From Tachypleus tridentatus (Eukaryota > Arthropoda > Merostomata > Xiphosura > Limulidae): a DNA stretch of 64,000 nucleotides. Of the stretch, positions 6,609 through 51,400 are shown piece after piece (position 1 is the stretch's first letter; each line of letters starts with the position of its first letter). Below the pieces are notes generated by a model that saw only the letters and a program-made list of their open reading frames with translations, made no database searches and was not told where the DNA came from. A program made the position numbers and the translations under genes. The DNA is taken from positions 167,717,874 through 167,781,873 of the forward strand of contig NC_134830.1 of the NCBI RefSeq assembly GCF_004210375.1. Direction: 5' to 3'.

Positions 6609-6853
6609 GAGCCATCCAACAAACAATGTAAATAATCCTTCACTATAACCACCCAACAAACAATGTAAATAATCCTTCACTATAACCACCCAACAAACAA
6701 TGAAAATAATCCTTCACTATAACCACCCAACAAACAATGTAAATAATCCTTCACTATAACCACCCAACAAACAATGAAAATAATCCTTCACTATAACCAC
6801 CCAACAAACAATGTAAATAATCCTTCACTATAACCACCAAACAAACAGTGTAA
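6609..6853. repeat. 37-bp minisatellite, about 6.5 units
   Basis: The unit contains CAACAAACAATGTAAATAA followed by TCCTTCACTATAACCACC. Units alternate between ATGTAAAT and ATGAAAAT variants, which hints at a 74-bp higher-order unit. An open frame over it on the minus strand is a by-product of the repeat. Confidence 0.93.
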
Positions 6854-7189
6854 AGGATCACAGACAGACATTCAATAAACACTGTAAAAGATCGAAAATA
6901 ATTGAAACCTGACAACACTACAAAAATAATTGTTGTTTTTAGTGCAGAACTACACAATGAACTATCTTCTGTAGTCTGTCTGTCCACGAATTTTACCCCA
7001 CGCACTAACAAACAGTTCGTAAAGTAGTATTTAGCTTCATTTGGTCCTGTAAGATCACAAATAATTCCGATATTAAATCACATTTGTTCTCAGGATACAT
7101 TCAATAACACCCTATTTAAATATATCGATGTTTCATAAATGTTGGTGGGAAATTTTGACGTATGGCGTAGGTGGTATTATTCTTACAGT

Positions 7190-13645: not shown

Positions 13646-13920
13646 GTTTGTTTTTGAATTTCGCGCAGATCTACTCGAGGGCTATCTGTGCAAGTCGTCT
13701 CTAATTTAGCAGTGTAAGACTAGAGGGAAGGCAGCTAGTCATTACCACCCACCGCCAACTGTTGGACTACTTTTCTTTTACCAACAAATAGTTGAATTGA
13801 CCATCACATTATAACGTCCCCACTGTTGAAAGGGTGAGCATGGTTGGTGCGACCGGGATTCGAACCCGCAACCGTCAGATTACGAGTCGAACGCCTTAAC
13901 CCACCTGGCCATGCCGAGCC
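13646..13920 (-). repeat. SINE-A, full length
   Basis: Tail, body and head are complete. The flanks AACAATATTT (13,631-13,640) and AATAATATTT (13,921-13,930) look like a target duplication with one mismatch. Confidence 0.93.
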
Positions 13921-16284: not shown

Positions 16285-17811
16285 TCAGGTCATCTAAAAT
16301 TTAATACAGAAAGTGCGGCCCGGCATGGCCAAGCGTGTTAAGGCGTGCGACTCGTAATCTGAGGGTCGCGGGTTCGCATCCCCTTCGCGCTAAACATGCT
16401 CGCCCTTTCAGCCGTGGGGGCGTTATAATGTGACGGTCAATCCCACTATTCGTTGGTAAAAGAGTAGCCCAAGAGTTGGCGGTGGGTGGTGATGACTAGC
16501 TGCCTTTCCTCTAGCCTTACATTACTAAATTAAGGACGGCTGGCACAGATAGCCCTCGAGTAGCTTTGTGCGAAATTCAAAAAACAAACAAACAAAACAA
16601 ACAGAAGTGCATCATCATTTTTGTCTTTGTATAAGGTTTTAATGACTAAAATATGTATTAAGACGCGTATAGAAATGTTCAGACAAATAAAAAAACTAAC
16701 CCAACTAAACTTTTTCAGATCATTAATCAAATAAACCCTTATTAATATGGATGTGTCTGAGGAGCACATTAGTCATATAATGCTTTATGAGTTTAAATAG
16801 TGCAGTAGAAACTACACGAAACATTCAAGGTGTTTATAATGCGGAGTCTTTTAATGACAAAAATTGTCGAAGGTGGTTTCAGAAGTTCAGATCAGGTGAC
16901 TACAGCTTAAGCGATGTACCACGTTCAGGTCGTCCTGTTGAGTTTAATAATGGTTTGTTGCTGACTGCACTTGATGAAGGTTGTGTTGTAACAGTTGAAG
17001 AACTAGCACAGAAGCTTAATTCAACCCAGTCAACAGTTCACTGTCATCTGCAACAGCTTGGAAATATGTCAAACCTTGGAAAATAGGTCCACCATGATTT
17101 CTCAGAAGCCAACCTTAGAGCAAGAGTGGACATTTGCATTTCTCTGCACTCTCGTGAACGTAACTCCCTTTTTTTTGGACAGCTTAGTGTCTGGAGATGA
17201 AGAATGAATATTTTATAAAAGTGTTAAGCGTCACAGACAATGGCTCAGTGCAGGTAAACTAGTTAAAGCACAGCCCAAAATGGACCTGCACCCTAAGAAA
17301 GTCTTGTTAAGCATTTGATGGGATATTGTTGGTGTGATCCACTTTGAGTTGCTGCCACTCAATGTAATGATTACATCAGACTTCTGTTGTCAACAGAGTG
17401 CTTGAATGTTGCACTGAAAGAAAAGAGGCCTGCTTCGATCAATCGTAAAGGTGTTGTGTTACACCAGGATAATGCATGGCCCCATATAGCAAGGATCACA
17501 TCTGCAAAGACTGAAGAGCTAGACTGGGAAAGACTTCCACATCCTCCTTATTCTCCAGTCCTTGACCTTTCTAATTATCATCTATTCCGAAGTTTGCAAA
17601 ATTGTCTTGATGAAAAAGAGCTTGGGACACATGAAGATGTCAAAACTACCCTCTCTACATTCTTTTCCTCCAAACCTCAAGAATTTTATGGGAAGTATTA
17701 TTCAGAAGCTTGTGAACCGTTGGTAGGAAGTAATTAATAATAAATAAACATGCATTACTGATTAAATATCATTAAAAGCGTCTGAAATCCTTTCTCTTTA
17801 TATGAACCTAC
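16285..17811 (+). mobile_element. mariner transposon, broken, private to unit 1
   Basis: The open parts at 16,787-17,086 and 17,387-17,737 translate to a mariner transposase. The first has a helix-turn-helix domain (CRRWFQKFRSGDYSLSDVPR). The second has the second catalytic aspartate in LHQDNAWPH and the block HPPYSP then YHLFRSLQ. The first aspartate is in SGDEE near 17,195. The third catalytic position (normally APSDYHLF) reads LSNYHLF, so asparagine replaces aspartate. Several stops and a frameshift lie between the two parts. Imperfect inverted ends of about 30 bp (CAGGTCATCTAAAA against TAGGTTCATATAAAG) suggest these limits. Units 2 and 3 lack it. Confidence 0.85.
16316..16602 (+). repeat. 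SINE-A inserted in the mariner
   Basis: Full-length copy of the subfamily whose head reads AAGCGTGTTAAGGCGTGCG. Flanks AGAAAGTGC and AGAAGTGC look like the target duplication. It lies between the mariner end and its transposase, so it inserted after the mariner. Confidence 0.93.
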
Positions 17812-17871: not shown

Positions 17872-18520
17872 TACCGCCTCATCCTGAAAGTAAAGCTCTT
17901 TTAGACACTATTAGAGTGGATTAATATATGAAGCCTTAAACGTGGTCAAATACATTAATTGAAAGGGATTGTTCTCATTAATCCAAAACTGTAATTAGAT
18001 CCCAAATCGGTCAAGAGATGACGGAGCTATGAGCTGAAAGTTTGCCATTTCATGAGTGGCTAGGCCTCGGCTAAAAATCTAGAACTGTTTTTGACTGTGA
18101 TTTATTCACACTATCACATAATTAAACTATATCTGTGAAATATATAGTTGTTGATATTAAATAAAATACATCACAACTACCTGTCTCAGTGAAAATATTT
18201 AAAGTTATTATTATTCTGTAATAATAATTACTATTATTGTTTTGTAATTGAAAGAAACTTTACACAATAAAATTTCTAAAACAGACTTTTTTGAAACTAC
18301 ATTCTGGTTTTAATATCCATTCAGATACGCAATAAACGATACAATTATTAATTTTTTCTTAATACAGTGGTATCAAGATCAACATGGTGGACAGTAAAGT
18401 ATTTTCATAACATCCTATACCAAAACATACACCCCTATAGTTATCAAAACATCAATCATACAATTATGTTCGCCTGACGTGATAAGTCACGTGCAATGGA
18501 GTTTGATTCATCTATATAAA
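17872..18520 (+). promoter_or_regulatory. promoter region of small gene copy 1
   Basis: About 650 bp is conserved in all three units. A palindromic E-box CACGTG lies at 18,488-18,493, and a TATA box TATATAAA at 18,513-18,520. The non-coding exon begins about 25-30 nt later. The E-box to TATA spacing is the same in each copy. Function is inferred from position and conservation. Confidence 0.7.
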
Positions 18521-18566: not shown

Positions 18567-18742
18567 GTGAGTTATATTATTGTTCTGATTTTTTTTTTTT
18601 TTTATCGTTAATTCAAGTTGAGAGATTTGTATGTTTATTATTAAATATGTTGTAGAGTAGTATGCACGTTTAATTGAAGTAAAATTTGTTTGTTACGCAG
18701 GAGGGTATTTCAAGAATTCAAGGCGTTATTTGATAAGACAAC

Positions 18743-19522
18743 ATGAAAATTATACTACTTGTAGCATACTTGCTGTTTCTTCAAAACGTAAGTTTTTTTT
18801 TTTCCTTATTTTCAGTGTTCCTCAACTATTCTGTTAGGTATTTACTAATCTACTATTTATTACATGGCTTTTATTCCTTTCAGGGTTTCTCTGCACTAGA
18901 TTCTTCAAACACCACTATGTTTAATATTGCTGCATCTTCCAACACGACCCTGCTCGTTATAGAAGGTAACAACATTACTACAATAACTGACCTCGATATT
19001 TCTAACATTGGAAGTTATATCCTTAACAAGATAAAGAGGATATTTCAGCTGAACTACGTTGAACCTTCAGACGTCGGTCGTGAAAACGAATATACGGTTA
19101 CCTCCAACACTACGGAAACCTCGCCAGGAGTTGACGGTACGTCTAGCAGTACCATAAAGCGGTACCCTCGTCACCCAAAATACGTGGATATTAACGAAAC
19201 TGCATCTGGAAACTCTTCCCACTTGGACTTCAGCACTACTACACATCACTTGAATACTTCTGTCTATTCAACAGAAACGGAGAAGTTTAACACTCCCACC
19301 AAACGAAGGAACCGAGAACCCAAGAACCTCTATATTGACGGTGAACTTTTGACGACGTCGAACGACACCATCGGTGACCTTTATTCTAACTCTACTCCGG
19401 TCATAAGTATGACTAAACACTCTGACATTCTTACGACGGTCAGCCCTAGTTCTGCCAACCTTCCCTTGACTCTCAGTGTATTTTTAAATTATGTTGTAAT
19501 TGCATTAATGATTGTTTCATAA
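18743..19522 (+). CDS. small cysteine-free, N-glycosylation-rich surface protein, copy 1
   Basis: Family not recognised. Coding exons are 18,743-18,787 and 18,884-19,522, joined in phase 0 across a 96-bp GT-AG intron to give 227 residues. Residues 1-15 (MKIILLVAYLLFLQN) with the following GFS form a signal peptide. The mature part has no cysteine, is rich in Ser, Thr and Asn, and has nine N-x-S/T sites (24, 35, 45, 90, 119, 125, 139, 175, 184). Basic pairs lie at 107-108 and 155-157. Residues 203-207 are small (PSSAN), followed by a 20-residue hydrophobic stretch to the end with no charged residue after it, as in GPI-anchor signals. I infer a GPI-linked extracellular glycoprotein. The intron has no stop in frame here, so an unspliced reading is also open (259 residues). 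A processed secreted precursor is the alternative. Confidence 0.85.
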   Translation: MKIILLVAYLLFLQNVSFFFSLFSVFLNYSVRYLLIYYLLHGFYSFQGFSALDSSNTTMFNIAASSNTTLLVIEGNNITTITDLDISNIGSYILNKIKRIFQLNYVEPSDVGRENEYTVTSNTTETSPGVDGTSSSTIKRYPRHPKYVDINETASGNSSHLDFSTTTHHLNTSVYSTETEKFNTPTKRRNREPKNLYIDGELLTTSNDTIGDLYSNSTPVISMTKHSDILTTVSPSSANLPLTLSVFLNYVVIALMIVS

Positions 19523-19590
19523 ATGTCTCTCTTTTTGTTGGAAGTTTGAACTTGTTTAATTGTATTAATCTATTTATACTTTTTCTTTTT

Positions 19591-19596
19591 AATAAA
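19591..19596 (+). terminator. poly(A) signal of small gene copy 1
   Basis: AATAAA about 70 nt after the stop codon, at the same place in all three copies. Confidence 0.75.
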
Positions 19597-19853
19597 AACC
19601 TTCTAATTAAGTTTTTCTATATTTCTCTACCATTAAATATAACAAGAACGACCTTAACGCATCTGCTTCCACACAACTTTCAATAACTGCAAACCGCTAA
19701 AGTTAACGGTGACTGCACCTTCCATATGGCTACAGGTATAGTAGTAATCCTACAATGATATATGTAGTTATCTTAAATGATAATATTTTAAACAAATAAT
19801 CATTATTTACTTCCAGAATTAAACTTTTCCTCACTACAAAACTACTACATCGT

Positions 19854-19915
19854 TTTTTTTTTTACTCTTTTTCCTCACTACAAAACTACTACATCGTTTT
19901 TTTTTTTTTTACTCT
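19854..19915. repeat. two-copy repeat with T runs
   Basis: TTCCTCACTACAAAACTACT followed by ACATCG and a T run occurs twice, about 45 bp apart. This is the unit 1 counterpart of the 28-bp array that is greatly expanded in unit 2 (27,665). Confidence 0.75.
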
Positions 19916-20498
19916 ATGCCTCGAATGAAACCTCCATTTGTTCAGGTGAATATTTTCAAATGTAATTATTTTTTATTTTGAGTTGTTTTATACGGAAAAA
20001 TATAAACCTATTCTACTTAACGGTTACGTAATTTCACGTACCGACGTACTTTTCTACACGTCGGACATGCATGCTGGGGAAAGTGAGAGAAACTTCACAT
20101 CGTGGTTTTATATAATTAATAAGATACTATACCGGAAAAGGAGTTGACCCCTTCATGTCTTTTGTAGTGGAACTTTTTTGTTAGCACTTTAATACCAGTT
20201 GCATCCTAGTGTACGAGGTATAACGTTAACTGCAAGTGCTCAAACGAGCCACTATGGAGTGAAATATATTGTGTAAATTGGTGTCTTTTGTTTATTCTGC
20301 CAAACTATAAGGGAGTTTGTTTACTTTCGAAACTATGCATTGCACCAAAAGTAGCAATTCGTTTTATTTATGGCTGTCTACTTCCAAATTTTTGTAACCC
20401 TGACTTCGAACAATTTACACGAATATTTTATTTGTTTTTGGGTGACTTAATGTAACCAGTTAACATCGTTCGTTGTGACGCCAATCTGTTTAAACCTA

Positions 20499-20725
20499 GA
20501 GGGTGGCCCGTCAGCCCCTCCCCATCCATATGTTATGTTACATTCAATAAAGCATGTAGTACAAATTTTTTCTTTTAAGATAAATATGGCTGATTTAAGC
20601 CCACTTGCACTTAAATGTCTCGCAGAACATGGCGTCGCATATTATGCAGCGAGAATGAGGGACAGCACACAGATACACTGCATACATAAGATATATGGAT
20701 GGGTAGGGACTTACGGGTCACCCTG
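20499..20725. mobile_element. 227-bp MITE with TA target, private to unit 1
   Basis: The ends are near-perfect inverted repeats of about 33 bp. The left end starts AGGGTGGCCCGTCAGCCCC, and the right end, reversed, starts AGGGTGACCCGTAAGTCCC. The element is flanked by TA on both sides. Units 2 and 3 have the empty site (AAACCTACAATGCGG near 28,540 and AAACCTAGAATGCGG near 35,592), which proves insertion. TA targeting suggests the Tc1/mariner superfamily. The open frame across it (20,475-20,750) is not a gene. Confidence 0.92.
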
Positions 20726-21367
20726 TAGAATGCGGTATGAAGAGTGCTAGTATCGATGAAAGGACTCGGTGGCATGTTTTAAATAGCTGGAGAAATTAAA
20801 AGATGATTGCAATATTTATTAATTTTTTTAATACAAATATTATAATGTACAAGCACCAATAGTCAATTTCCCCAACAACTGAATTCTGAATTGATATTGT
20901 TACATCTCGTTTAAGCCACCTAACGTGGGTGGCCTCGCGCCGCTTATAAGCTGACTTTCTACCGACGAAGGCATTTAATGTCTTCGTAGAAATATTAATA
21001 TTTACTAAATTGAATAAGTAACTAATGTTCAAAAACTCCTGGTCCAATTCTGTAATTTTCTGATTGGTAAGGATTTACAGCTTCTGAGGCTTACAAGTAC
21101 ACTGACTTTAACTAACAATATTATATTACTGTCTCTTAGCTTTAATACCGATTAGGCGAGGTTTTCTTATGTTCAGCAACCACACATTCTTGACTGCCAC
21201 TTGAACTCTATTTAAATGTGGAGAAAAGGGAGACCCGTACAATCACGTTACATCCATCAAACTGAAACAAACGTATATGTTAAATGTATAACAACAAATC
21301 CATTGCATTATTAATAAATTTATACATATATTTAGGTGTCGAGATTATAATAGAACACGTAACAACA

Positions 21368-21419
21368 ATGAGTAACGTTAAATGGATGTTTCTTCTGCTC
21401 TTCACCGTTTCTACAGCAG
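21368..21419 (+). CDS. cadherin-type signal-peptide exon, copy 1 (alternative or stranded first exon)
   Basis: The exon encodes MSNVKWMFLLLFTVSTA plus the first base of the next codon and ends at donor GCAG/GTAAGA. A possible acceptor (ATTTAG at 21,335) leaves a 32-nt leader, the same in all copies. It is nearly identical to the first exon of the cadherin gene at 36,383. No cadherin second exon is visible in this unit, so it can only work if it splices about 17 kb to 38,603. Start and donor are intact, which argues against simple decay. Asn-3 and Lys-5 here are Asp and Arg in copies 2 and 3. Confidence 0.65.
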
Positions 21420-21900
21420 GTAAGATGATTTGAATTGGTAAAATGTGGTTATATTTCCTGTAGTTCAAATTTCGAAGGTTGAGACGTCTTGTCTCGGTTA
21501 TACTTGCAATTTCTAACAACTACCTGAAAGTTAACAAAAACGTAAAATTCCAGTTAATTTTAACACTTACTATATTTTTAATGAAAGCTTGAATATCTGT
21601 TTCAAACATAGAGTATTATGTTATTGAGTTCATGACCATACTTGAAAATATAATTTTAACGTAATATTAAAGCTATGCATCAACAATTTGTGTTGTACTA
21701 ATACACCAACTAGATTTCTTCGTTGTTCACTATCAAATATTTCACAGAGTCTCTGTTTTGTGATAACCAATAAGATTGAAAATAAAACTTTGTTTTAAAA
21801 AATGCCAAATTAGAAGACAAGTGTTAATGTTTAAAAAAACGACCACAAATAAACTTAATCAAAACCTTTCTTATGAAACGTTGGAATACGACGTTTCAAA

Positions 21901-22134
21901 GGCTTGGCATGGCGAGAGAGTTAGGGCAGTCTACCCGTAATCTGAGGGTCGCGGGTTCGAACCCCCATTGTAACAAACATGCTCGCCCTTTCAGCCGTGG
22001 GGGCGTTATAAAAAGAGTAGCCCAAGAGTAGGAGGTGGGTGATGATGACTAGCTGTCTTACATTACTGAATTAGAGGCCGCTAACGCAGATACTCCTCGT
22101 GTAGCTTTGCGTGAAATTCAAAAACAAACAAACA
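21901..22134 (+). repeat. SINE-A in unit 1, shared with units 2 and 3
   Basis: The same insertion site is occupied in all three units (after ACGACGTTTCAAAG). Units 1 and 2 share an unusual head (GGCATGGCGAGAGAGTTA) and a body deletion, whereas unit 3 has a normal head. Confidence 0.9.
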
Positions 22135-23514
22135 TATTACAATCAAGTCAAATTTAGATATTAAGTTGACATATAAGAGTCAAGCCAAATTTATATATCA
22201 GTTTCATCCTTCGGAGGAAAACGCGATAATTTTGAATGAATGCTATTAAACTGTATAGTTTCAGTAAGCTACAAATGCCCAGTTTGTGTTTTATGATCCA
22301 AAAATATCACAAAAACATATCTCTGTACAGTGAACCATGGATATGATTCATGATAAGGATCGCTCATTTGTTCTTCTTTATTGATTTTAATTGTTTTCTA
22401 TTATAAATATTATAATAAAACCTGCGAAGTCCAATTAAACTTATTATTGTGCATTGTCGCAAATAATAGCGGCTGTATAACCGTTAACACACATTCGTTT
22501 TAATGTAGTCTTTGGTTTATATGGAGCCTCATAATGCACTATATGTTTATGTACATAGTTGCATGCGGGCCGTGCATGGAATTTAATGTTTATATAACAA
22601 GCATGACACATGACCATAACGATTACTAAATTATTGTTACAACTGTACTGATTCTGCATGTCCTTTGTTTATCTGTAGGGTTCATGCACTCTTTTCAGAC
22701 AAGACGACAGAATTACAGTTTTCTTTTCACCACTACAATATCGATTTCTGCAATGTTACATAGACACCTAAAACGTTATACAAACGTCTAAGCCGTCCCT
22801 TGCAACATAAATCTTTGAGCCATAGTTAATAAAATAGCACCAAGCTCAGTTTCCAGCATCAGAACGGCAATCACACTGATAGTAAACGTGGAATTTTATG
22901 GATACTACAGATAGATCAGCCATCCTGGTGGTTAACTATAAGGATTGGCATGAATCGTTTAAGCAGGAGATGGCGAAATTGATGCTGATTCAAAACGAAA
23001 CTGAGGCTTAAATTTTGAAGCGATGTGATTATCACAGTGGAAGAAGATCGTAATTATGAAAGGTGAAAAGTATATTTATATAATCAATCCATAATTGTTC
23101 ATTAACACGTCTTCAAATTTGCAGAACATGTAAAATGTCACTTTAAGAGGAATTCTGCTCAGCTGCAGCAAAACTATGACTGGTCTTACTATGACCAGTG
23201 AAGAGGAAATATAACAACTATAAGCGATAGTATTTATACACATGTGCTATTATATTATGACACATTGTCTTATATTTGCATGAAATATATAGGAATGCAT
23301 CTATACAACTTGTCAAGTTCATATGACTATATATATATAAATATATGTATATTTTAGTGAAAATAATTACATTTTAATGATGTTAAATAGTAAAATCATA
23401 AGGAAGGACTACATTAAAAACAGCAAATCCAGACCTCTGACTAATTATATAATTTGTTAATTTAACTAATAAACAAGCCGAAACAAAAACAAATTAAACA
23501 AAAAAGGCTGCATC
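22135..23514. other. unit 1 tail, part 1, no gene recognised
   Basis: The first 200 bp and last 80 bp match unit 2 (30,102-30,390). In between, 22,336-23,436 is absent from unit 2, where CCATGGA joins directly to CTAATTAT. No inverted ends or transposase were seen in the extra 1.1 kb, so a deletion in unit 2 is as likely as an insertion here. Confidence 0.6.
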
Positions 23515-24104
23515 AACTAAAAAGATCCCAGGGTATAAGCTACAATGTGAGATTATAAAATGTATCCTAGGTCTTGGAAGTGACTGAAGAAGTAGGCCCC
23601 ACCTAGGGGTGGGGATACACTATCTATCAGTCTTAACCTATATTCATCAATCTCACATAAGAAATAAAGAATAGTAATAGATATAGAATTAGAAATTGAA
23701 ATAGAACTATCTGCAGGCAGTGAAGGGTGATATAGATACGGGCATTTTAGGCTTGAGCACCTACATTTTGCTCTCCTAATTTCTATTTCTAATTCCTTAG
23801 CAATTTGTGACATTCTACACAAATAGAACTGTCTGCAGACAGTAAAGGGTGATAAAGATGTGGGACATTGTGAGCGTAAGCACACACATTTCGCTCTCCT
23901 AATTTCTATTTCAATTTATATTTCTAATTCTATATCTATTGCTTTACTTTATTTCTAATAGCGTGAGATTGGCGAATAAAGGTTAAGACTGATAGACGGT
24001 GTATCCCCACCGCTATGTGGGTCCTTCTTTTTCAATTACCTCCAAAACCTAGGGTATATTTTATAATCACACGTTGAAACTTGTACCTGAGGATCTTTTC
24101 AGTT
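23515..24104. mobile_element. foldback-type element with long inverted arms and internal 122-bp repeats
   Basis: The left arm begins AACTAAAAAGATCCCAGG. The right arm, reversed, begins AACTGAAAAGATCCTCAGG. Similarity continues for roughly 180 bp on each side, including matching GGGGATACA and CAGTCTTAACC blocks. Two copies of a 122-bp repeat (starts near 23,701 and 23,823) lie in the middle. No transposase is present. Open frames inside are by-products. The superfamily is not assigned and no target duplication is clear. Confidence 0.8.
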
Positions 24105-25170
24105 TATATGGCTTTACACTCGAGAAAACTATAAAGCACACATGCATTGCATGTCCATAGATGTATAAAACTCATGTGTAACAAGATGGATCCAATCCAT
24201 GCATCATTCCAGTACATTTCATTAGTCCCTCCAATCCAGTGTTTACAGGGTATAAATGTATTACTTACACACATTTTACAAAAATATACATAACACGTGG
24301 TATATTATTCACCATGCGTCACAGTGATCACACGTGCAGTACCACTATCAACGATAACATTGTGGCAGTAATATCAGGAGCAACAGTCATCCAATCTGCA
24401 TGAAGCCAATTCAAAGTTTATCATTGTTTCACGAGAGGGCAACACACACCAACCACATATGTCATTACACTAGACTTTCAAATATGGCAATATTACAATT
24501 ATGCAGGTTTACATGTCTGATGGGCATAAATTAAACAACTTATGAAACGAGATTATTAAACTCGGGTAATAAGGATCTTCCATTAATGGCGGAAACAAGA
24601 TATGTGGCTTGAAGTTATAATTCAGTCACAAAAAATAAACAAACAAGTTTAAGTTTTGAGATTTTGGGCAAACGTCATTTCGTCAAGCTACAAATTCCTG
24701 TCTTGACTCCAAGTGTAAAAGTTTCAATATTCTGGAGTCGAAATAAGAAAATAATGTCAACAATATGTCTCAAAGCCTCATTTTGTTTGTTTTGCATTTT
24801 TAACTTTAAGCTACCTACAATGTTTCTTTCTTTTCTGTAGATCGCTATTTTTAATTAGTAGTTGTTAATAATCTTGAAATGAATTAGATCAGTATGTAAC
24901 AAAATATAGCTCGTGTATAATAACAGTTATATGATTTACGACAAAATGCGTGGAACCATTAAACGTAAACTAATGTATAGATGGCATTAGTAAACCTTCA
25001 AAATTCTGTAACAAACACACATTAACAAAACTTAACCGTTTTATGGCAAAAATATGTTAAACTAGACCTGAAGTTTTCGGTGGTTAAAATCGTCTTAAAA
25101 ATTAAAGGTCCTAAAACTAAAATACAGTCTTCAACAGAAGGCTGTAGTGGCAGTGGATATAACAGACATA
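24105..25170. other. unit 1 tail, part 2, no gene recognised
   Basis: Closely matches unit 2 at 30,950-32,210, apart from a SINE-A present only there. No coding exon recognised. Confidence 0.6.
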
Positions 25171-25257
25171 GTTTGTTTGTTGTTGTTTTTTGGAATTTCG
25201 CACAAAGCTACTCGAGGGCTATCTGTCCCTAATTTAGCAGCGTAAGACTAGAGAAAA
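25171..25257 (-). repeat. SINE-A tail fragment at the unit 1/unit 2 junction
   Basis: Reverse SINE-A tail ending abruptly where the headless plus-strand SINE-A of unit 2 begins. This opposed SINE pair marks the duplication junction. Confidence 0.8.
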
Positions 25258-25472
25258 TCCCCCGTCATACCAAACATGCTTGCCCTTTCAGCCGTGAGGG
25301 CGTAATAATGTGACGGTTAATCCCACTATTTGTTGGCAAAAGAGTAACCCAAGAGTTGGCGGTGGGTGGTGATGACTAGCTGCCTTCCCTCTAGTCTTAC
25401 GTTGCTAAATTAGGGACGGCTAGCGTAGACAACCCTTGTGTAGCTTTGCGCGAAACTCAAAACAAAACAAAC
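25258..25472 (+). repeat. headless SINE-A opening unit 2
   Basis: Counterpart of 15,827-16,041 and 32,501-32,735, truncated at the same head position. Confidence 0.88.
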
Positions 25473-25734
25473 GAAATTGACATTATTTTATCGTGTATTT
25501 AAGATTAATTCTTTTATGCCACGAAAATCATATTATTGAAAGTAGATAACTGTAAAAAGTCCAAGAGAAGATGTCCAATACCTGTGGAACTTTAAATTAT
25601 TTTAGCCATGATTAGTGCAAATTAATGGCTGAGAACTTGTTATTAGCTTTATGTTTTTGTGTGCCAGCAATGACAAGCGCTTAGTGCGCATGTACCTAAT
25701 TCCATTTTATTGCTTATCAAGATGACTACCGCAT

Positions 25735-26375
25735 TACCCTCAAAGTAAAGTTCTTTTAGACAGTATTAGAGTAAATTAGTGTTTAATACCTTAAACGTGG
25801 TCAAATACGTTAATTGAAAGGGATTGTTCTCATTAATCTAAAACTGTGATTAGATCCCAAATCGGTCAAGAGATGACGGAGATGTGAGCTAAAAGTTTTC
25901 CATTCCATGAGTGGCTAGGCCTCGGCTAAAAATCTAGAACTGTTTTTGACTGCGATTTATTCACACTATCACATAATTAAACTATATCTGTGGAATATAT
26001 AGTTGTTGATATTAAATAAAATACATCACAACTACCTGTCTCAGTGAAAATATTTAAAGTTATTATTATTTTGTAATAATAATTACTATTATTGTTTTGT
26101 AATTGAAAGAAACTTTACACAATAAAATTTCTAAAACAGACTTTTTTGAAACTACATTCTGGTTTTAATATCCATTCAGATACGCAATAAACGATACAAT
26201 TATTAATGTTTTCTTAATACAGTGGTATCAAGATCAACATGGTGGACAGTAAAGTATTTTCATAACATCCTATACCAAAACATACACCCCTATAATTATC
26301 AAAACATCAATCATACAATTATGTTCGCCTAACGTGATAAGTCACGTGCAATGGAGTTTGATTCATCTATATAAA
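25735..26375 (+). promoter_or_regulatory. promoter region of small gene copy 2
   Basis: Homologous to the copy 1 promoter. E-box CACGTG lies at 26,343-26,348 and TATATAAA at 26,368-26,375. The non-coding exon ends at 26,429 (GAAG/GTAAGG), and the acceptor TTATTCAG ends at 26,520. Confidence 0.7.
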
Positions 26376-26565
26376 TGATAAGTCAAAAGAGATTTAAGCG
26401 TGGTGAAGTGTAAGATCAGACATTAGAAGGTAAGGGTTGTTAGGTCATTGGTTATTTAGTTTGTTTGTGTGAAGTGATGAGGAAGTTTAGTAATTGAATT
26501 AATATATCTGTGTTATTCAGGAGGAGTGTATTAAACGATTTCAAGCCGTTCTTTAACGAGACAAC

Positions 26566-27352
26566 ATGAAAAATATTCTACCTATCGCATGTTTGCTGTT
26601 TCTTCAAAACGTAAGTTTCTTTCTTGTTAGTGTTCCCTAACCACTTGTTCAGTTGTTCTTATGAGTATGTGTTATTATCTACTTTTGATTACATGCTTTT
26701 TATTCCTTTTCAGGGTTTCTCTGAACTAGATTCTATAAACACCACTATGTTTAATATTGCTGCATCTTCCAACACGACCCTGATCGTCATAGAAGGTAAC
26801 AACATTACTACAGTAACTGACATCGATATTTCTAACATTGGAAGTTATATCCTTAACAAGATAAAGAGGATATTTCAGCTGAACTACGTTGAACCTTCAG
26901 ACGTCGGTCGTGTAAACGAATATACGGTTACCTCCAACACTACGGAAACCTCGCCAGGAGTTGACGGTACGTCTAGCAGTACTATAAAGCGGTACCCTCG
27001 TCACCCAAAATACGTGGATATTAACGAAACTGTATCTGGAAACTCTTCCCACATGGACTTCAGCACTACTGCACATCACTTGAATACTTCTGTCTATTCA
27101 ACAGAAACGGAGAAGTTTAACACTCCCACCAAACGAAGGAACCGAGAACCCAAGAACCTCTATATTGACGGTGAACTTTTGACGACGTCGAACGACACCA
27201 TCGGTGACCTTTATTCTAACTCTACTCCGGTTATAAATATGACTAAACACTCTGACATTCTTACGACGGTCAGCCCTAGTTCTGCCAACATTGCGTTGAC
27301 GCTCAGTGTATTTTTAAATTATGTTGTAATTGCATTAATGATTGTTTTATAA
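26566..27352 (+). CDS. small cysteine-free-ectodomain, N-glycosylation-rich surface protein, copy 2
   Basis: Coding exons 26,566-26,610 and 26,714-27,352 join in phase 0 to give 227 residues, the same length as copies 1 and 3. The start codon used is the one in the separate signal-peptide exon (MKNILPIACLLFLQN). An in-frame stop soon after the donor shows the intron must be removed. The mature part has ten N-x-S/T sites, adding Asn-190 to the nine of copy 1. Basic clusters KRY and KRR are conserved. The tail is hydrophobic and ends in Leu. It differs from copies 1 and 3 by a modest number of substitutions. Role unknown; a GPI-anchored surface glycoprotein is inferred. Confidence 0.85.
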
Positions 27353-27416
27353 CTGTCTTTTTGTTGGAAGTTTGAACTTGTTTAATTGTATTAATCTATT
27401 TATACTTTTTTCTTTT

Positions 27417-27422
27417 AATAAA
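27417..27422 (+). terminator. poly(A) signal of small gene copy 2
   Basis: AATAAA about 65 nt after the stop. Confidence 0.75.
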
Positions 27423-27664
27423 AACCTTCTAAGTTTCCTGTATTTCTCTACCATTTAAACATTACAAGAACGACCTTAACTCATCTGCTTCCACACAACT
27501 TTCAATAACTGCAAACCGCTAAAGTTAACGGTGACTGCACCTTCCATATGGCTACAGGTAGAGTAGTAATCCTACAATGATATATGTAGTTATCTTAATG
27601 GTAAGATTCTAATTCTGTACATACATACATACAAACAAATAGTCATTTACTTTCGGAAATAAGC

Positions 27665-27983
27665 TTTTCTTCACTACAATAATACGAGATCGTTTTCTTC
27701 ACTACACTAATACGAGATCGTTTTCTTCACTACACTAATACGAGATCGTTTTCTTCACTACAATAATACGAGATCGTTTTCGTTCACTCTTCACTACATA
27801 ATACGAGATCGTTTTCTTCACTACAATAATACGAGATCGTTTTCTTCACTACACTAATACGAGATCGTTTTCTTCACTACACTAATACGAGATCGTTTTC
27901 TTCACTACAATAATACGAGATCGTTTTCTTCACTACAATAATACGAGATCGTTTTCTTCACTACAATAATACGAGATCGTTTT
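27665..27983. repeat. 28-bp minisatellite, about 11 units, expanded in unit 2
   Basis: The unit is TTCTTCACTACAATAATACG followed by AGATCGTT, with an ACACTAA variant. Unit 3 has a single diverged unit (about 34,975-35,005) and unit 1 has two of a longer form, so the expansion happened after duplication. Units are direct and have no unique spacers, so it is not a CRISPR array. Confidence 0.95.
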
Positions 27984-29323
27984 GATCTTTTACTCTGTCT
28001 CATGTAATCATTCTTCATTTATTTTGATTTCTTTCATACGGGGAAAAATAGACCTATTATAATTAATGGTCACGTAATTCAACTTACCTTCCTAAATCGA
28101 GTTGGAGGTGAATGCTGGGAAAGGAGAGGGGGGGGAAACTTTATAGTGTTTATAAAATTAATAATGTACTTTACCTGAAAAGGAGTTGGCCCCTTTATTT
28201 TTTTTGTAGTGGAACATTTCTGTTGTCACTTTAATACTAGTTGTATCTTCGTGTACGAGGTATAACGTTAATTACAATTGGTCAGACGAGCCACTATTGA
28301 GTGAAGTATATTGTGTAAATGGATTTTGTTTATTTTCCTCACTACACAAACTTTAAGGGAGTTTGTTTTTGAAAACTATATTATTGCAGGAAAATTGACT
28401 TCTTACTACATATGGCTATCTACTACTAAATGTTTTCAACCTAGACTTCTCAATATTTACACAAATATTTTAATTTTGGATGATTCCTATGTAATTAGCT
28501 AACATCGCTTGTTGTGGCTCCAATCTCTGTATAAACCTACAATGCGGTCTGGAGAGTCCTAGTATCGATGAAAGCATTCGATAGCATACTTTAAATATCC
28601 GGAGAGGTTAGAAGTTAAATGATTGCAATATTTATTAAATTTTATGTGCTAATATGACTGCACAATTTTTAATACAAATACTTTAACGTACAACCAACAA
28701 TAAAACTTAATTGTTTTTACAAATAGTTAATACAAGTATACTGGCTCACTTTTACAATCTATGTGATTTAAAATTAAGTATTTTATTGATAGTCAATTTC
28801 CCTAACAAGTAAATTAATTCTGAATTGATAGTTACACCTCGTTTAAGCCACCTTATGTGGGTGGCCTCGCGAGGCTTGTAAGCTGACTTTTTACCGACGA
28901 AGGCATTTAATGTCTTCGTAGAAATATTAATATTCACTACACTGAACAAGTTTCTAATGTCCAAAAATTCATGGCGCAATTCTGTAATATTCTGATGGGT
29001 AACAGATGGTCTTACAGTACACTCACTTTAACCAACAATATTCTCTTACTGTCTCTTAGCTAGCTTTGGTACCAATTAGGCGAGTTTCTCGTATGTTTAG
29101 CGATGTTCAAAGACGCTCCATCGTTTTCGTAAACCACATATTCTTGACTGTTGCTTGAACTGCCCTCAAATGTAGAGAAAAGGTGGGACCCGCACAATCA
29201 CGTCATATCCATCAAACTGAAATAAACGTAGATGTTAAATGTATACTAGTAAATTCGTTACGTTATGGATAATTTTTGTACATATTTTTAGATGTCGAGA
29301 TTATAATAGAACACGTAACAAGA

Positions 29324-29375
29324 ATGAGTGACGTTAGATGGATGTTTCTTCTGCTCTTCACCGTTTCTACAGCAG
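29324..29375 (+). CDS. cadherin-type signal-peptide exon, copy 2 (alternative or stranded first exon)
   Basis: The exon encodes MSDVRWMFLLLFTVSTA plus one base and has donor GCAG/GTAAGA. The protein sequence is identical to the copy in unit 3 that fits the cadherin gene. The possible acceptor upstream reads TTTTTAG/ATGTCGAG, which places a short upstream ATG reading in the leader of this copy only. No cadherin exon 2 lies in this unit. Use would need splicing about 9 kb to 38,603. Confidence 0.65.
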
Positions 29376-29868
29376 GTAAGATGATTTGAATCAGTAAAAT
29401 GTGGTTATATTTCCTGTAGTTCAAATTTCGGAGATTGACAGATGCATTTTAGTCTCAGTTATACATGTAGTTTCGAATTACTATCTGAAAGTTAACAAAA
29501 ACGTAAAATTCCAGTTAATTTTAACACTTTCTACATTTTTTAATGAAAGCTTGAATATCAGTTTCAAACATAGAGTATTATGTTATTGAGTTCATGACCA
29601 TACTTGAAAATATAATTTTAACGTAATATTAAAGCTATGCATCAACAATTTGTGTTGTACTAATACACCAACTAGATTTCTTCGTTGTTCACTATCAAAT
29701 ATTTCACAGAGTCTCTGTTTTGTGATAACCAATAAGATTGAAAATAAAACTTTGTTTTAAAAAATGCCAGATTAGAAGACAAGTGTTAATGTTAAAAAAA
29801 AAAAAAACGACCACAAAGAAATTTAATCAAAACCTTTCTTATGAAACGTTGGAATACGACGTTTCAAA

Positions 29869-30101
29869 GGCTTGGCATGGCGAGAGAGTTAAGGCAGTCT
29901 ACTCGTAACCTGAGGGTCGCGGGTTCGAACCCCCATTGTAACAAACATGCTCGCCCTTCCCGCCGTGGGGGCGTTATAAAAAGAGTAGCCCAAGAGTAGG
30001 AGGTGGGTGGTGATGACTAGCTGTCTTACATTACTGAATTAGAGGCCGCTAACGCAGATAGTCCTCGTGTAGCTTTGCGTGAAATTCAAAAACAAACAAA
30101 C
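29869..30101 (+). repeat. SINE-A in unit 2, shared insertion
   Basis: Same site and same unusual head and internal deletion as 21,901-22,134. Confidence 0.9.
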
Positions 30102-30390
30102 ATATTACAATTAAGTCAAATTTAGATATTAAGTTGACATATAAGAGTCAAGCCAAACTTAGATATCAATTTCATCCTTCGGAGGAAAACGCGATAATTT
30201 TGAATGAATGCTATTAAACTGTATAGTTTTAGTAAGCTACAAATGCCCAGTTTGTGTTTTATGATCCAAAAATATCACAAAAGCATCTCTCTGTACAGTA
30301 AACCATGGACTAATTATGACTATTTATGTAATTTGTTAATTTAACTAATAAACAAGACGAAACAAAAAAATAAACAAAAAACGCTGAATC

Positions 30391-30949
30391 AACTGAAAAG
30401 AAATTGAAATATAACTGTCAGTGGGCAGTAAAGGGTGATGTAGATTTGGGAAGTTGTAGGCTTGAACACCCACATTTCGCTCTTTTAATTTCTATTTCTA
30501 ATTCTATAGCTATTTGTGACCTTCTACACAAATAGAATTGTCTGTAGGCAGCAAAGGGTGATGTAGATTTGGGACATTGTAGGCTTGAGCACCCACATTT
30601 TGCTCTCCTAATTTCTATTTCTAATTCTATAGCTATTTTTGACATTCTACGCAAATAGAACTGTCTGTAGGCAGCAAGAGGTGTTATAGATCTGGGACAT
30701 TGTAGGCTTGAGTACCCACATGTCGCTCCCATAATTTCTATTTCAGTTTATATTTCTAATTTCTATTTCTAATTCTATATCTATTGCTATACTTTATTTC
30801 TTATAGTGTGAGAGTGGTATATGAAGGTTGAGACTAATAGACGATGTATCCCCACCGCTATGTGGGTCCTACTACTTACGTTACCTCCAAATCCTAGGGT
30901 ATATTTTATAATTACACGTTGAAGCTCGTACCTGAGGATATTTTCAGTT
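30391..30949. mobile_element. foldback element in unit 2, left arm lost, three internal repeats
   Basis: The right arm and the 122-bp repeats match 23,515-24,104, but three repeat units are present instead of two. Nearly all of the left arm is missing: AACTGAAAAG joins directly to AAATTGAAAT. An open frame on the minus strand (30,418-30,732) is just the repeat array. Confidence 0.8.
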
Positions 30950-31887
30950 TATACGGTTTTACACCCGAGAAAACTATAAAGCACACATGCATTTCATGTG
31001 CATAGATGTATAAAACTCATGTGTAACAAGATGGATCCAATCCATGCATCATTCCAGTACATTTCATTAGTTCCTCCAATCCAGTGTTTACAGGGTATAA
31101 ATGTATTACCTACACACAGTTTACAAAAATATACATAACACGTGGTATATTGTTCACCATGCGTCACAGTGATCACACCTGCAGTACCACTATCAACGAT
31201 AACATTGTGGCAGTAATATCAGGAGCAACAGTCATCCAATCTGCATGAAGCCAATTCAAAGTTTATCATTGTTTCACGAGAGGGCACCACACATCAACCA
31301 CATATGTCAATACACTAGACTTTCAAATATGGCAATATTACAATTATGCAGGTTTACATGTGTGATGGGCATAAATTAAACAACTTATGAAACGAGATTA
31401 TTAAACTCGGGTAATAAGGATCTTCCATTAATGGCGGAAACAAGATATGTGGCTTGAAGTTATAATTCAGTCACAAAAAATAAACAAACAAGTTTAAGTT
31501 TTGAGATTTTGTGCAAACGTCATTTCGTCAAGCTACAAATTCCTGTCTTGACTCCAAGTCTAAAAATTGCAATATTCTGGAGTCGAAATACGAAAATAAT
31601 GTCAGCAATGTGTCTCAAAGCCTCATTTTGTTTGTTTACGTTTTACTTGCTATTGCATTTTTAACTTTAAGCTACCTACAATGTTTCTTTCTTTTCTGTA
31701 GATCGCTATTTTTAATTAGTAGTTGTTAATAATCTTGAAATGAATTAGATCAGTATGTAACAAAATATAGCTCGTGTATAATAACAGTTATATGATTTAC
31801 GACAAAATGCGTGGAACCATTAAACGTAAACTAATGTATAGATGGCATTAGTAAACTCTCAAAATTCTGTGACAAACACACATTAAC
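30950..31887. other. unit 2 tail, no gene recognised
   Basis: Homologous to 24,105-25,030 with few differences. No exon recognised. Confidence 0.6.
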
Positions 31888-32151
31888 ACGTGTTATGGCG
31901 TGCGACTTGTAATCTGAGGGTCGCGGGTTCGCATCCCGGTCGCGTCAAACATGCTAGCCTTTTCAACCGTGGGGGCGTTATAACGCGACGGTCAATCCCA
32001 CTATTCGTTGGTAAAAGAGTAGCCCAAGAGTTGGCAGTGTGTGGTGATGACTAGCTCCCTTCCCTCTGGTCTTACACTGCTAAATTAGGGACGGCTAGCA
32101 CAGATAGCCCTCGAGTAGCTTTGTGCGAAATTCAAAAACAAACAAACAAAA
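31888..32151 (+). repeat. SINE-A private to unit 2
   Basis: Belongs to the GTGTTAAGGCGTGCG-head subfamily with the first head bases missing. The site is empty in unit 1 (ACATTAACAAAACTTAACC at 25,020). Confidence 0.9.
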
Positions 32152-32339
32152 CTGAACCGTTTTATGGCAAGAATATGTTAAACTAGACCTGAAGTTTTCG
32201 GTGATTTGTATAACAGACATAGAATGGTCGACTTGATAAAATATTATTCTAATACATTATTCTTTATATTTACTTATAATTTCCCAAAATTTTACACTAT
32301 TATATCTAATATTTCTAGAAATAGCTATTTATTATATAA

Positions 32340-32465
32340 GTGTGGATGTGTTTTTACTTTTAGCAAAGCCACATCGGGCTATCTGCTGAGCCCACCGAGG
32401 GGAATCGAACAACTCGATGATTTTAGAGTTGTAAACTCGTAGACTTACCGAGGTACTAGCGGGGA
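32340..32465 (-). repeat. SINE-B at the unit 2/unit 3 junction
   Basis: Reverse copy containing GAGGGGAATCGAAC and ending in the head block TACTAGCGGGGAG. The plus-strand SINE-A of unit 3 follows. Confidence 0.85.
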
Positions 32466-32500
32466 GCAAGTCTGGGGACTTAGTGGATTCGTCATTATTT

Positions 32501-32735
32501 GCCCGAGGGTCGAGGGCTCGAATCCCCGTCGCACCAAGCATGCTCGCTCTTTTAGCCATGAGGGCGTAATAATGTGACGGTCAATCCCACTCTTATTTGT
32601 AAAAGAGTAACCCAAGAGTTGGCGATGGGTGGTGATGACTAGTTGCCTTCCCTCTAGTCTTACACTGCTAAATTAGGGACTGCTAGCGTAGATAGCCCTC
32701 GAGTAGCTTTGCGCAAAATTCAAACAAACCAAACG
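32501..32735 (+). repeat. headless SINE-A opening unit 3
   Basis: Slightly longer into the head than its counterparts, starting at GAGGGTCGAGGGCTCGAAT. Confidence 0.88.
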
Positions 32736-32989
32736 AAATCATCATTATTTTATCGTGTATTTAAGATTAATTCTTTTATGCCACGAAAATCATATTATTG
32801 AAAGTAAATAACTGTAAAAAGTCCAAGAGAAAATGTTCAATACCTGTGGAACTTTAAATTATTTTAGCCATGATTAGTGTAAATTAGTGGCTGAGACCTT
32901 GTTAGTAGCTTTATGTTTTTGTGCGCCAGCAATGACAAGCGCTTAGTGCGCGTGTACCTAATTCCATTTTATTACTTATTAAGATGACT

Positions 32990-33637
32990 ACCGCATTACC
33001 CTCAAAGTAAAGTTCTTTTATACAGTATTAAAGTAAATTAGTATTTAATACCTTAAACATGGTCAAATATGTTAATTGTAAGGGATTGTTCTCATTAATC
33101 CAAAACTGTAATTAGATCCCAAATCGGTCAAGAGATGACGGAGTTCTGAGCTTAAAGTTTCCCATTCCATGAGTGGCTAGGCCTCGGCTAAAAATCTAGA
33201 ACTGTTTTTGACTGCGATTTATTCACACTATCACATAATTAAACTATATCTGTGGAATATATAATTGTTCATATTAAATAAAATACATCAAAACTACCTG
33301 TCTCAGTGAAAATATTTAAAGTTATTATTATTCTGTAATAATAATTAGTATTATTGTTTTGTAATTGAAAGGAACTTTTTACAATAAAATTTCTAAAACA
33401 TACTTTTTTGAAACTACATTCTGGTTTGAATATCCATTCAGATACGCAATAAACGATACAATTATTAATGTTTTCGTAATACAGTGGTATCAAGATCAAC
33501 ATGGTGGACAGTAAAGTATTTTCATAACATCCTATACCAAAACAAACACCCCTATAATTATCAAAACATCAATCATACAATTATGTTCGCCTAACGTGAT
33601 AAGTCACGTGCAATGGATTTTGATTCATCTATATAAA
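32990..33637 (+). promoter_or_regulatory. promoter region of small gene copy 3
   Basis: E-box CACGTG lies at 33,605-33,610 and TATATAAA at 33,630-33,637. The non-coding exon ends at 33,691 (GAAG/GTAAGA), and the acceptor TTATATAG ends at 33,814. Confidence 0.7.
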
Positions 33638-33705
33638 TGATAAGTCGAAAGAGATTTAAGTGTGGTGAAGCATAAGATCAGACATTAGAAGGTAAGACTC
33701 GTTAG

Positions 33706-33706
33706 G

Positions 33707-33759
<53 letters not shown>

Positions 33760-33760
33760 T
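33706..33760. repeat. GATT microsatellite in the first intron of copy 3
   Basis: About 13 perfect GATT repeats, absent from the same intron of copies 1 and 2. Confidence 0.95.
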
Positions 33761-33859
33761 GTGTGAAGTGATGAAGAAGTTTAGTAATTGAATTAATGTA
33801 TCTGTGTTATATAGGAGGAGTGTATTGGATAATTAGAAGCTGTTCTTTAACGAGACAAC

Positions 33860-34645
33860 ATGAAAAATATTCTCCCTATAGCATGTTTGCTGTTTCTTCA
33901 AAACGTAAGTTTCTTTCTTGTTAGTGTTCCCTAACATGTACTCTGCTATTTTTCTAACTATTTGTTATTATCTACTTTTGATTACATGGTTTTTATTCCT
34001 TTTCAGGGTTTCTCTGAACTAGATTCTATAAATACCACTATGTTTAATATTGCTGAATCTTCCAACACGACCCTGATCGTCATAGAAGGTAACAACATTA
34101 CTACAATAACTGACCTCGATATTTCTAACATTGGAAGTTATATTCTTAACAAGATAAAGAGGATATTTCAGCTCAACTACGTTGATCCTTCAGACGTCGA
34201 TCGTGAAAACCAGTATACGGTTACCTCCAACACTACGGAAACCTCGCCAGGAGTTGACGGTACGTCTAGCAGTACTATAAAGCGGTACCCTCGTCACCCA
34301 AAATACGTGGATATTAACGAAACTGTATCTGGAAACTCTTCCCACATGGACTTCAGCACTACTGCACATCACTTGAATACTTCTGTCTATTCAACAGAAA
34401 CGGAGAAGTTTAACACTCCCACCAAACGAAGGAACCGAGAACCCAAGAACCTCTATATTGACGGTGAACTTTTGACGACGTCGAACGACACCATCGGTGA
34501 CCTTTATTCTAACTCTACTCCGGTCATAAATATAACTAAGCACTCTGACATTCTTACGACGGTCAGCCCTAGTTCTGCCAACCTTGCCTTGACTCTCAGT
34601 GTATTTTTAAATTATGTTGTGATTGCATTAATGATTGTTTCATAA
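33860..34645 (+). CDS. small cysteine-free-ectodomain, N-glycosylation-rich surface protein, copy 3
   Basis: Coding exons 33,860-33,904 and 34,007-34,645 join in phase 0 to give 227 residues. The signal-peptide exon is identical in protein to copy 2. Differences from the other copies include Glu in AESSNTT, Asp in VDPSDVDREN, a Gln before YTV, and NIT at 190 (sequon kept). The C-terminal hydrophobic tail ends in Ser, as in copy 1. All splice sites are intact. Together with copies 1 and 2 this makes three full-length paralogs with no internal stops, which supports real expression. No family recognised. Confidence 0.85.
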
Positions 34646-34722: not shown

Positions 34723-34728
34723 AATAAA
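34723..34728 (+). terminator. poly(A) signal of small gene copy 3
   Basis: AATAAA about 78 nt after the stop. Confidence 0.75.
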
Positions 34729-48400: not shown

Positions 48401-51400
48401 TTCCACAAGTCAAAGATTACAAGTGAAAATATTAATAATTAGCTTATTGCCGATACTAACTAAAGCATATCTTGCTATATTGGAAATGATAAAGATATTG
48501 CTGCTCTTTCCTGACTCACACTATTTAACTTCTGGCTTATACAATGGTTACAATAAGCGCTTAAGCCTAAATTAGAGAAGTATTTCATAATTATACTCAT
48601 TTATAAGATGTTTCTTAGTTCTTCATACAGGATAGTTTTCTGTAGAAGAATAGTTCAAGATCATTAATAATTTTAATGCATTAAATATATAAAACTCGAA
48701 CAGTAGAAATCTTGACCATATCTCTACGGTGAAATGAGCTGCTTTCAGCAAAAAGTTATGCAACTTCTTTGCCATTTTTGCCAAGTTTCTAGACTCGATT
48801 GCTACATCTCCGATTCACTTCCCTTGTCTTACAACAGTTTTATTGGAGAATGAATACTACAGAAAATCCTCTCAGAGACTGTGCTCATTTTTAGCAAATT
48901 TGTGCTTATTTTCCACATATTCAAAAGAGGGTGAGTGCGGTTCCCATAAAATAGCTTGCAAAGCTTTAAAGATAAGACATTTAAAATGGATAACAAGATT
49001 TTCAGAAAGAAAGCCCATTATGGATTGACACTTCTATACATCTTTCTGTCAGGTTTTACAAAGAGCACGTTTGTTCAAAAAATTAATCAATTAATACAAA
49101 ACATTCACAATCAATTTTCTGTCATTTTATAATTTTAAGTAGCGAAGAATATTCATTTTATCAGTGTAAGAAATGGCTCAGTTGTAACTTCTTCATAACT
49201 TTCTAGTTGTAACATTTGAACTGTTTTATGTTTTATTCGACTAAAATTGTAACATTTCAAGTGTTCCAGTTAATAGAGTGGTGTGCATTTCTTTTGTTTT
49301 ATCATATTTTGATTCATCTTTAGGTCTAATTTTTCAATCAGTGTAAAAAATATTGGCTTTCTTTTGTAAATATAATATTATAATTATTTTCATTTTTTAC
49401 GTAACAATACTTAACTTTTCTTTCCTAAGTTTGTAACACACCCTTAAGATGTTTGTCCTGGCGTTGTATCAGTATATCCCATTTTATAACCATACGGAAT
49501 ATTGTATTCTCCACAACAGCTGTATTTAGAAAGATGGGCACTTTACCAATTAAAACCAATTATTTTCGAATAATTTGAAACACTGTTATGCATTAAATTC
49601 CTTAGAGACTGACTAAAGGCTGAACATTTTCTCAATTTCAACTGATGCTAGTTTGACTAGTCATATATTGTTATTCATATATTTATAAAAACACAATAAA
49701 ATCAGTGGATCTTCTATACATTCTATCCACGTTTATTCAGAAGCAAAATCAAAACATTCACAATCAATTTTCTGTCATTTTGAATTTTGCGTGCATTCAT
49801 TTAAGAAGAAATAAGCCACTTCTTCATAACTTTCTTTTGAACTGTTTTATGTTTTATTCGACTAAAATTGTAACATTTCAAGTGTTCCAGTTAATAGAGT
49901 GGTGTGCATTTCTTTTTGTTTTATCATATTTTGATTTCTTTAGGTCTAATTTTTCTAAAAAAATATTGGCATTTTTGGCTATTACAATTGTGCTGTACAC
50001 ACACTTAACTTTTCTTTCCTAAGTTTGTACACATTCTTAAATTTTCCTGGCGTTGTATCAGTATATCCCATTTTATAACCATACGGAATATTGTATTCTC
50101 CACAACAGCTGTATTTAGAAAGATGGGCACTTTACCAATTAAATCCAATTATTTTCGAATAATTTGAAACACTGTTATGCATTAATTCCTTAGAGACTGA
50201 CTAAAGGCTGAACATTTTCTCAATTTCAACTGATGCTACTTTACTAGTCATATATTGTTACAATACGTAACAACTAGTCCCACACCATTTCAGCTATGCT
50301 TGTCAGCATGTACGTTAGAAACATGTCAATCATCGTCACCTTTCACATAATAAATGGTATGTGTAAATTCTCTCTATATTTCCATACATGACCCAAGAAG
50401 CTTCGGCCATTGAAATGATATTGAAGAATTTCTGTGCACACAAGTGACTTTTATTCCTACCTGTCAAAATCCTTGCATGGTTTATGTTTTCACTTTTCTA
50501 TGAGTAGCATTTAAAAGACCTCATCACGAACTAAAATAACAGATCCATCAATACAGAACATTTGAAACTATAATTATTATAACAACTAGCCGCGGCTTCC
50601 TGTATATAAAGTTATAATTACATATACAGTGTCCAAAAAGTCTGGAAATATAGGTATTTCAAAGAAATTTACATAATGCGTTGCACGTGTTACACGAGAC
50701 AAGTTTGGATTAACAGCAGGATTTACTCGACTTTGATAGCATCATAATCAGTTAAATCATAATCAGTTAAGCATGTCAAATTGAGAAAGACTCCAAATCA
50801 CCCATGGTTCCAGATTTTCCGAAAACCCTGTGTACAGATTTTAAAGTTACATTTTAAAGTTTTTAAGTAGTTTCCTTGCAGCGTGCAAAGTTTAGAAATA
50901 AGTTCTACATGTACCATTAATTCCTTTTTAATTTTCTTACGTCAGGATACCACTCTGAATGAAGTGATCGGCTACGTCATAGCTAAAGAAAAGGAAATCA
51001 GTAACCTTCCCGTTTCTTTTGAAATTCAGGTTAGTGCAAATTATTTACTAATATTTTCACTAATATTACTATGAGTTATTTAACTTGACAGTCGGACTCA
51101 ATTTCTTGTATTATTTCGCACAAAGGAAAACCATATGCACAGACATATTCACATATACATCTGTTTATCTTTCTGTTTGTTTGTTTATTTCTATTAACTC
51201 CTATCGTCCCGATATTCTTTACACAAAGTTTTAGTGTATTACATTCAAAATTATATTAAGCTAATATTTCTTTACGTCATACCAATTAGTATAGCATATA
51301 AGCTTAGACAGTAGTCAATATTTTAATAGTATATCAGTTTTAAGTTTTTAATTCTATAAGGCAATGTTAAATACTAATTTGAATTTTCCCTAGTATAGCG

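Follow-up and report, generated by a model that had tools for sequence, protein, structure and literature searches.

Which protein is encoded by three tandem genes of the horseshoe crab Tachypleus tridentatus, and why certain parts of these genes resemble each other so closely, are the questions raised by this locus. The window, namely the whole stretch of 64,000 nucleotides analyzed, carries three genes on the + strand, which extend from start to stop over 18743-19522 (c1), 26566-27352 (c2), and 33860-34645 (c3), their starts being spaced 7.8 kb (c1-c2) and 7.3 kb (c2-c3). In each copy a TATA box precedes a putative 5'-UTR exon, which is followed by an exon holding codons 1-15, the greater part of the signal peptide, and by the main exon, which holds codons 16-227. 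The first coding exon spans 18743-18787 in c1, 26566-26610 in c2, and 33860-33904 in c3; the main exon, including the stop codon, spans 18884-19522, 26714-27352, and 34007-34645, respectively. Spliced translation of the two coding exons yields 227 residues in all three copies, as the initial annotation had stated, and in each the coding intron begins with GT and ends with AG. The splice sites, promoter, and poly(A) signal, described there as intact, were likewise recovered in every copy as sequence matches. The TATATAAA box lies at 18513-18520, 26368-26375, and 33630-33637, a putative 5'-UTR intron with GT/AG ends at 18567-18700, 26430-26520, and 33692-33814, and AATAAA at 19591-19596, 27417-27422, and 34723-34728, all on the + strand. 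Such open frames greatly exceed chance expectation. No other stop-free stretch of the window is as long as those of the main exons (236, 245, and 261 codons; the next has 131), and none of 2000 random 636-nt sequences stayed open under either of two composition models. The GC content of the main exons is 0.415 (c1), 0.405 (c2), and 0.405 (c3), versus 0.339 for the window.

Upstream of each TATATAAA box there is a block, on the + strand, of low divergence and without indels between copies. It occupies 18046-18512 in c1, and its coordinates in c2 (25901-26367) and c3 (33163-33629) were obtained by ungapped match to the c1 block. Among the 40 best-scored genome matches out of 2742 candidates, only the three copies reach this block. 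The preceding segment of c1, 17900-18046, is part of a dispersed repeat and holds the 37 other scored matches of the same best 40 of 2742. Some 20 bases before the TATA box, all copies carry the same TGATAAGTCACGTG stretch (18476-18499, 26331-26354, and 33593-33616), which we take to be a GATA-like site joined to an E-box.

The distribution of the protein was assessed in a genome of 2.17 Gb in 205 contigs. It was found at three places, all within the window (10 of 10 candidates scored), and the same three places were returned at E values up to 10 (7 of 7 candidates scored). In Pfam, searched to E 10, the best match of c1 was Macoilin (E 0.48; 9.4 bits against a cut-off of 32), and c2 had none. 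NCBIfam gave no match for c1 to E 10. The main exons of c1 and c2, compared with PHROGs to E 1, gave no real match (E 0.59 for c1, none for c2), and c2 as a query against PDB sequences to E 10 retrieved nothing of value. Limited scans with two short peptide patterns each yielded 80 matches in viral contigs and 65 in prokaryote genome contigs, with no confirmed relative in either set, and a viral or bacterial origin was set aside. A repeat- or transposon-encoded protein was also rejected, given that no dispersed copies occur and all three places are in the array. The protein is not named in the titles or abstract openings of the limited literature considered. The lack of a known relative covers Pfam, NCBIfam, PHROGs, PDB, the animal's own genome, and the pattern-scanned viral and prokaryotic contigs. 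The proposal that the genes form a three-copy family outside any known family is supported within the libraries searched, which revealed neither a named nor a repeat-encoded family matching it. As an observation on the same genome, Coagulin (PF02035), which is typical of horseshoe crabs, had 19 matches there and none in 14 control genomes, in support of a horseshoe-crab-type genome. On contigs C7 and C11 (loci L004-L011), the best matches are those of C11; lesser matches, located on C7 and at other places of C11, are perhaps diverged coagulogen-like paralogues.

The copies have not diverged evenly. In the following, pairwise values are ordered c1-c2, c1-c3, c2-c3, and regions are in c1 coordinates. 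The upstream block (1.5, 3.9, and 2.8%) and the main exon (3.0, 3.4, and 3.0%), both with zero indels, are 1.5-3.9% apart, compared with 9-39% for most other noncoding parts. The values are, for the UTR plus first intron (36, 39, and 14%), the second intron (31, 28, and 13%), and the segments 19523-19620 (9, 21, and 18%), 19621-19781 (3, 14, and 16%), and 19960-20500 (24, 22, and 18%), as given in parentheses; the dispersed repeat at 17900-18045 differs by 11, 12, and 8%. Coding exon 1 shows 16, 16, and 4%. No difference between c2 and c3 occurs along 311 bases of the main exon. Fourfold sites differ at 4 of 101, 5 of 102, and 6 of 103 positions, i.e., 4-6%, compared with 22, 24, and 17% in four noncoding regions (Fisher P 6e-7, 3e-7, and 0.0015), a set that does not comprise 19782-19959, the dispersed repeat, or the conserved upstream block. 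Against all noncoding alignment columns (18, 19, and 13%) the P values are 5e-5, 5e-5, and 0.02. Silent sites are also held low, clearly for c1 and weakly for c2-c3.

Gene conversion is the likeliest and simplest cause of this low divergence, although not a proven one, and DNA-level constraint on the upstream block could contribute beside it. Runs of shared sites exceed those in shuffles, with P 0.0012 or less for the longest runs of each pair, an excess to which the uneven alignment of the c1 UTR and intron may add. Since the main exon contains none of the 14 longer runs listed, of which one falls in the upstream block, these runs show mosaicism of the array and not conversion of the main exon itself. 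In the noncoding segment 21605-21801, c1 and c2 have no difference in 197 positions, whereas the four preceding bins differ by 9-16%. This edge looks like a conversion border. The later bins stay low (1-5%), and thus the homogenised part is longer than 197 bases. As the main exons and upstream blocks are seemingly homogenised, the shared length and intactness of the three genes amount in part to a single observation, and constraint is not demonstrated three times over.

Other elements accompany the genes. The repeated units have in common a block at 20859-22341, present in c3 to about 22132 only, of which about 21898-22143 is a dispersed repeat. A second gene in this block was considered and rejected, as no shared frame among the 13 short ones listed was convincing by eye. 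Upstream of c1, a mariner-like element at 16781-17734 includes a segment (16781-17083) matching HTH_48 of Mos1 transposase with E 3.9e-9; a second segment, 17348-17734, matched nothing in Pfam at E 0.01 and is presumably mariner-like. A dispersed element of about 280 bases (16311-16600) has 24 BLAST matches in the window, including itself. It is probably a tRNA-derived SINE, because one of its matches, 13646-13920, overlaps a tRNA-Thr that ARAGORN places on this strand at 13845-13920. Tandem arrays scoring 150 or more have units of 28 bases (27665-27983) and 123 bases (30407-30744), both inside a repeated gene unit, and of 37 bases (6612-6854) and 53 bases (63392-63510). A tandem duplication of about 0.5-0.6 kb with 84% identity occupies 49097-50260.

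The encoded proteins c2 and c3 are each 93% identical to c1. The initial annotation attributed to every copy a signal peptide, a cysteine-free mature part, 9-10 N-x-S/T sites, and a hydrophobic C-terminal tail after small residues, and all of these features were recovered. Judged by rule, each signal peptide has a basic residue, a hydrophobic run, and G-F-S ahead of the presumed cut. Cysteine is absent from c1, and the single Cys9 of c2 and c3 is within the signal peptide. N-x-S/T sites number 9 (c1), 10 (c2), and 10 (c3), modestly above the roughly 5 expected in shuffles (P 0.03, 0.01, and 0.01); much of this richness is due to the N/S/T-rich composition, with S/T alone making up 28-30% of the mature chain. 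The chain is predicted to be unstructured. AlphaFold2 gave a mean pLDDT of 34.0, a pTM of 0.20, and no residue at 70 or above, a low pLDDT being also expected from an alignment of just three sequences. Order is hinted at only by a low-confidence tail helix and, at residues 26-69 of the full protein, by a weak strand-strand-strand-helix pattern. In all copies the tail is hydrophobic to the C-terminus and uncharged over the last 25 positions, with S204-S205-A206 located 23 residues from the C-terminus; c2 and c3 have further omega-site candidates at 207 and 209. By a crude rule, the tail fits GPI anchoring in the three copies.

These features suggest, with a probability of about one half, that the three tandem genes of the cluster encode a taxon-restricted, disordered, glycan-rich surface protein of the GPI type. 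The signal peptide would be cut after G-F-S18, up to 9-10 N-glycans would be added in the ER and Golgi, probably together with O-glycans on the S/T-rich chain, and, at about S204, GPI would take the place of the tail. On the outer membrane, the mature protein would then form a flexible bristle covered with sugars and about 186 residues long, whose role would be that of a coat or a scaffold for ligands and not that of a folded enzyme. Proprotein convertases may shed or split it at three KR sites, and gene conversion would probably keep the upstream block and main exon alike.

The same tail might instead be a transmembrane segment of a type I membrane protein lacking a cytosolic tail and otherwise similar to the GPI-type protein. 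The window 208-226, of 19 residues, averages 2.28 (c1), 2.50 (c2), and 2.46 (c3) on the Kyte-Doolittle scale, and the predicted tail helix agrees with such a segment. However, the hydrophobic stretch reaches the C-terminus with no basic residue after it in all copies, and this topology appears improbable. Similarly unlikely is a processed precursor, in which cleavage by convertases at the three KR sites would set glycopeptides free, the membrane tail holding the last piece only. KR dipeptides at 66-67, 107-108, and 155-156, which the initial annotation had not mentioned, occur in all three copies and may allow processing. Their number, 3 against 0.30 expected in shuffles (P about 0.0017), comes from a test chosen after inspection of the sequence and from homogenised copies that are not independent. 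The second and third KR-headed segments also bear a weak likeness (P 0.07 for c1, 0.05 for c2). An internal three-fold repeat was nevertheless not claimed, with P 0.04-0.73 for the segment pairs of c1 and c2. In c2 the unsupervised test was not significant (P 0.39) and no mature peptide is repeated, and no glycine precedes any KR site in the three translations inspected by eye. A GPI-like tail is, moreover, unusual in peptide precursors.

A different account is that the genes are unexpressed or decaying duplicates, alike through gene conversion alone. Purifying selection on the protein was not demonstrated: nonsynonymous changes make up 23 of 38 variable sites against an expected share of 0.728 (P 0.07), and 19 of 30 in the main exon alone (P 0.16), which is not significantly below neutral. 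Noncoding rates predict 11-14 indels per pair for the 684-base coding sequence, where none is seen. Scaled to the coding part's own divergence, the expectation falls to about 2 per pair, and zero arises by chance with P 0.08-0.15 per pair. Zero indels were therefore dropped as strong proof of coding constraint, and with the loss of this argument the account of unexpressed copies gained weight. In addition, 0.548 of simulated frames were still stop-free after 3% divergence alone. This account is nonetheless highly unlikely, in view of an open frame so far above chance and of a reading frame, splice sites, TATA box, and poly(A) signal that are intact in the three copies. Quite doubtful, too, is the more elaborate proposal of a horseshoe-crab-only family whose fully disordered, GPI-tethered glycan scaffold would be cut by convertases at three KR sites into released glycopeptides, with conversion holding the upstream block and main exon and drift affecting the signal-peptide exon, UTR, and introns.

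If expressed, the GPI-type glycoprotein would add an unnamed surface family to a group whose blood cells serve medicine, and the locus would offer a neat small tandem array in which the introns drift but the upstream block and main exon remain similar. As it stands, it represents one more lineage-restricted secreted or surface protein of a common class, such gene families being frequent in arthropods. With the taxon-restricted tandem secreted-protein families generally known from arthropods it has in common the tandem array, the TATA promoter, the separate signal-peptide exon, and the lack of a homologue in the libraries searched. Prohormone and neuropeptide precursors also combine a signal peptide with several KR sites; they differ in that the present protein has a hydrophobic C-terminal tail, no repeated peptide, and no glycine before KR. 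Vertebrate CD52 and CD24, small GPI-anchored, sialomucin-like glycoproteins compared here by description, are likewise short and glycan-dense, with a GPI-type tail and a mature chain that has no disulphides and is probably unfolded. Their chains, however, are a few dozen residues long, whereas the horseshoe crab protein would have about 186, with 9-10 N-sites and three KR dipeptides.
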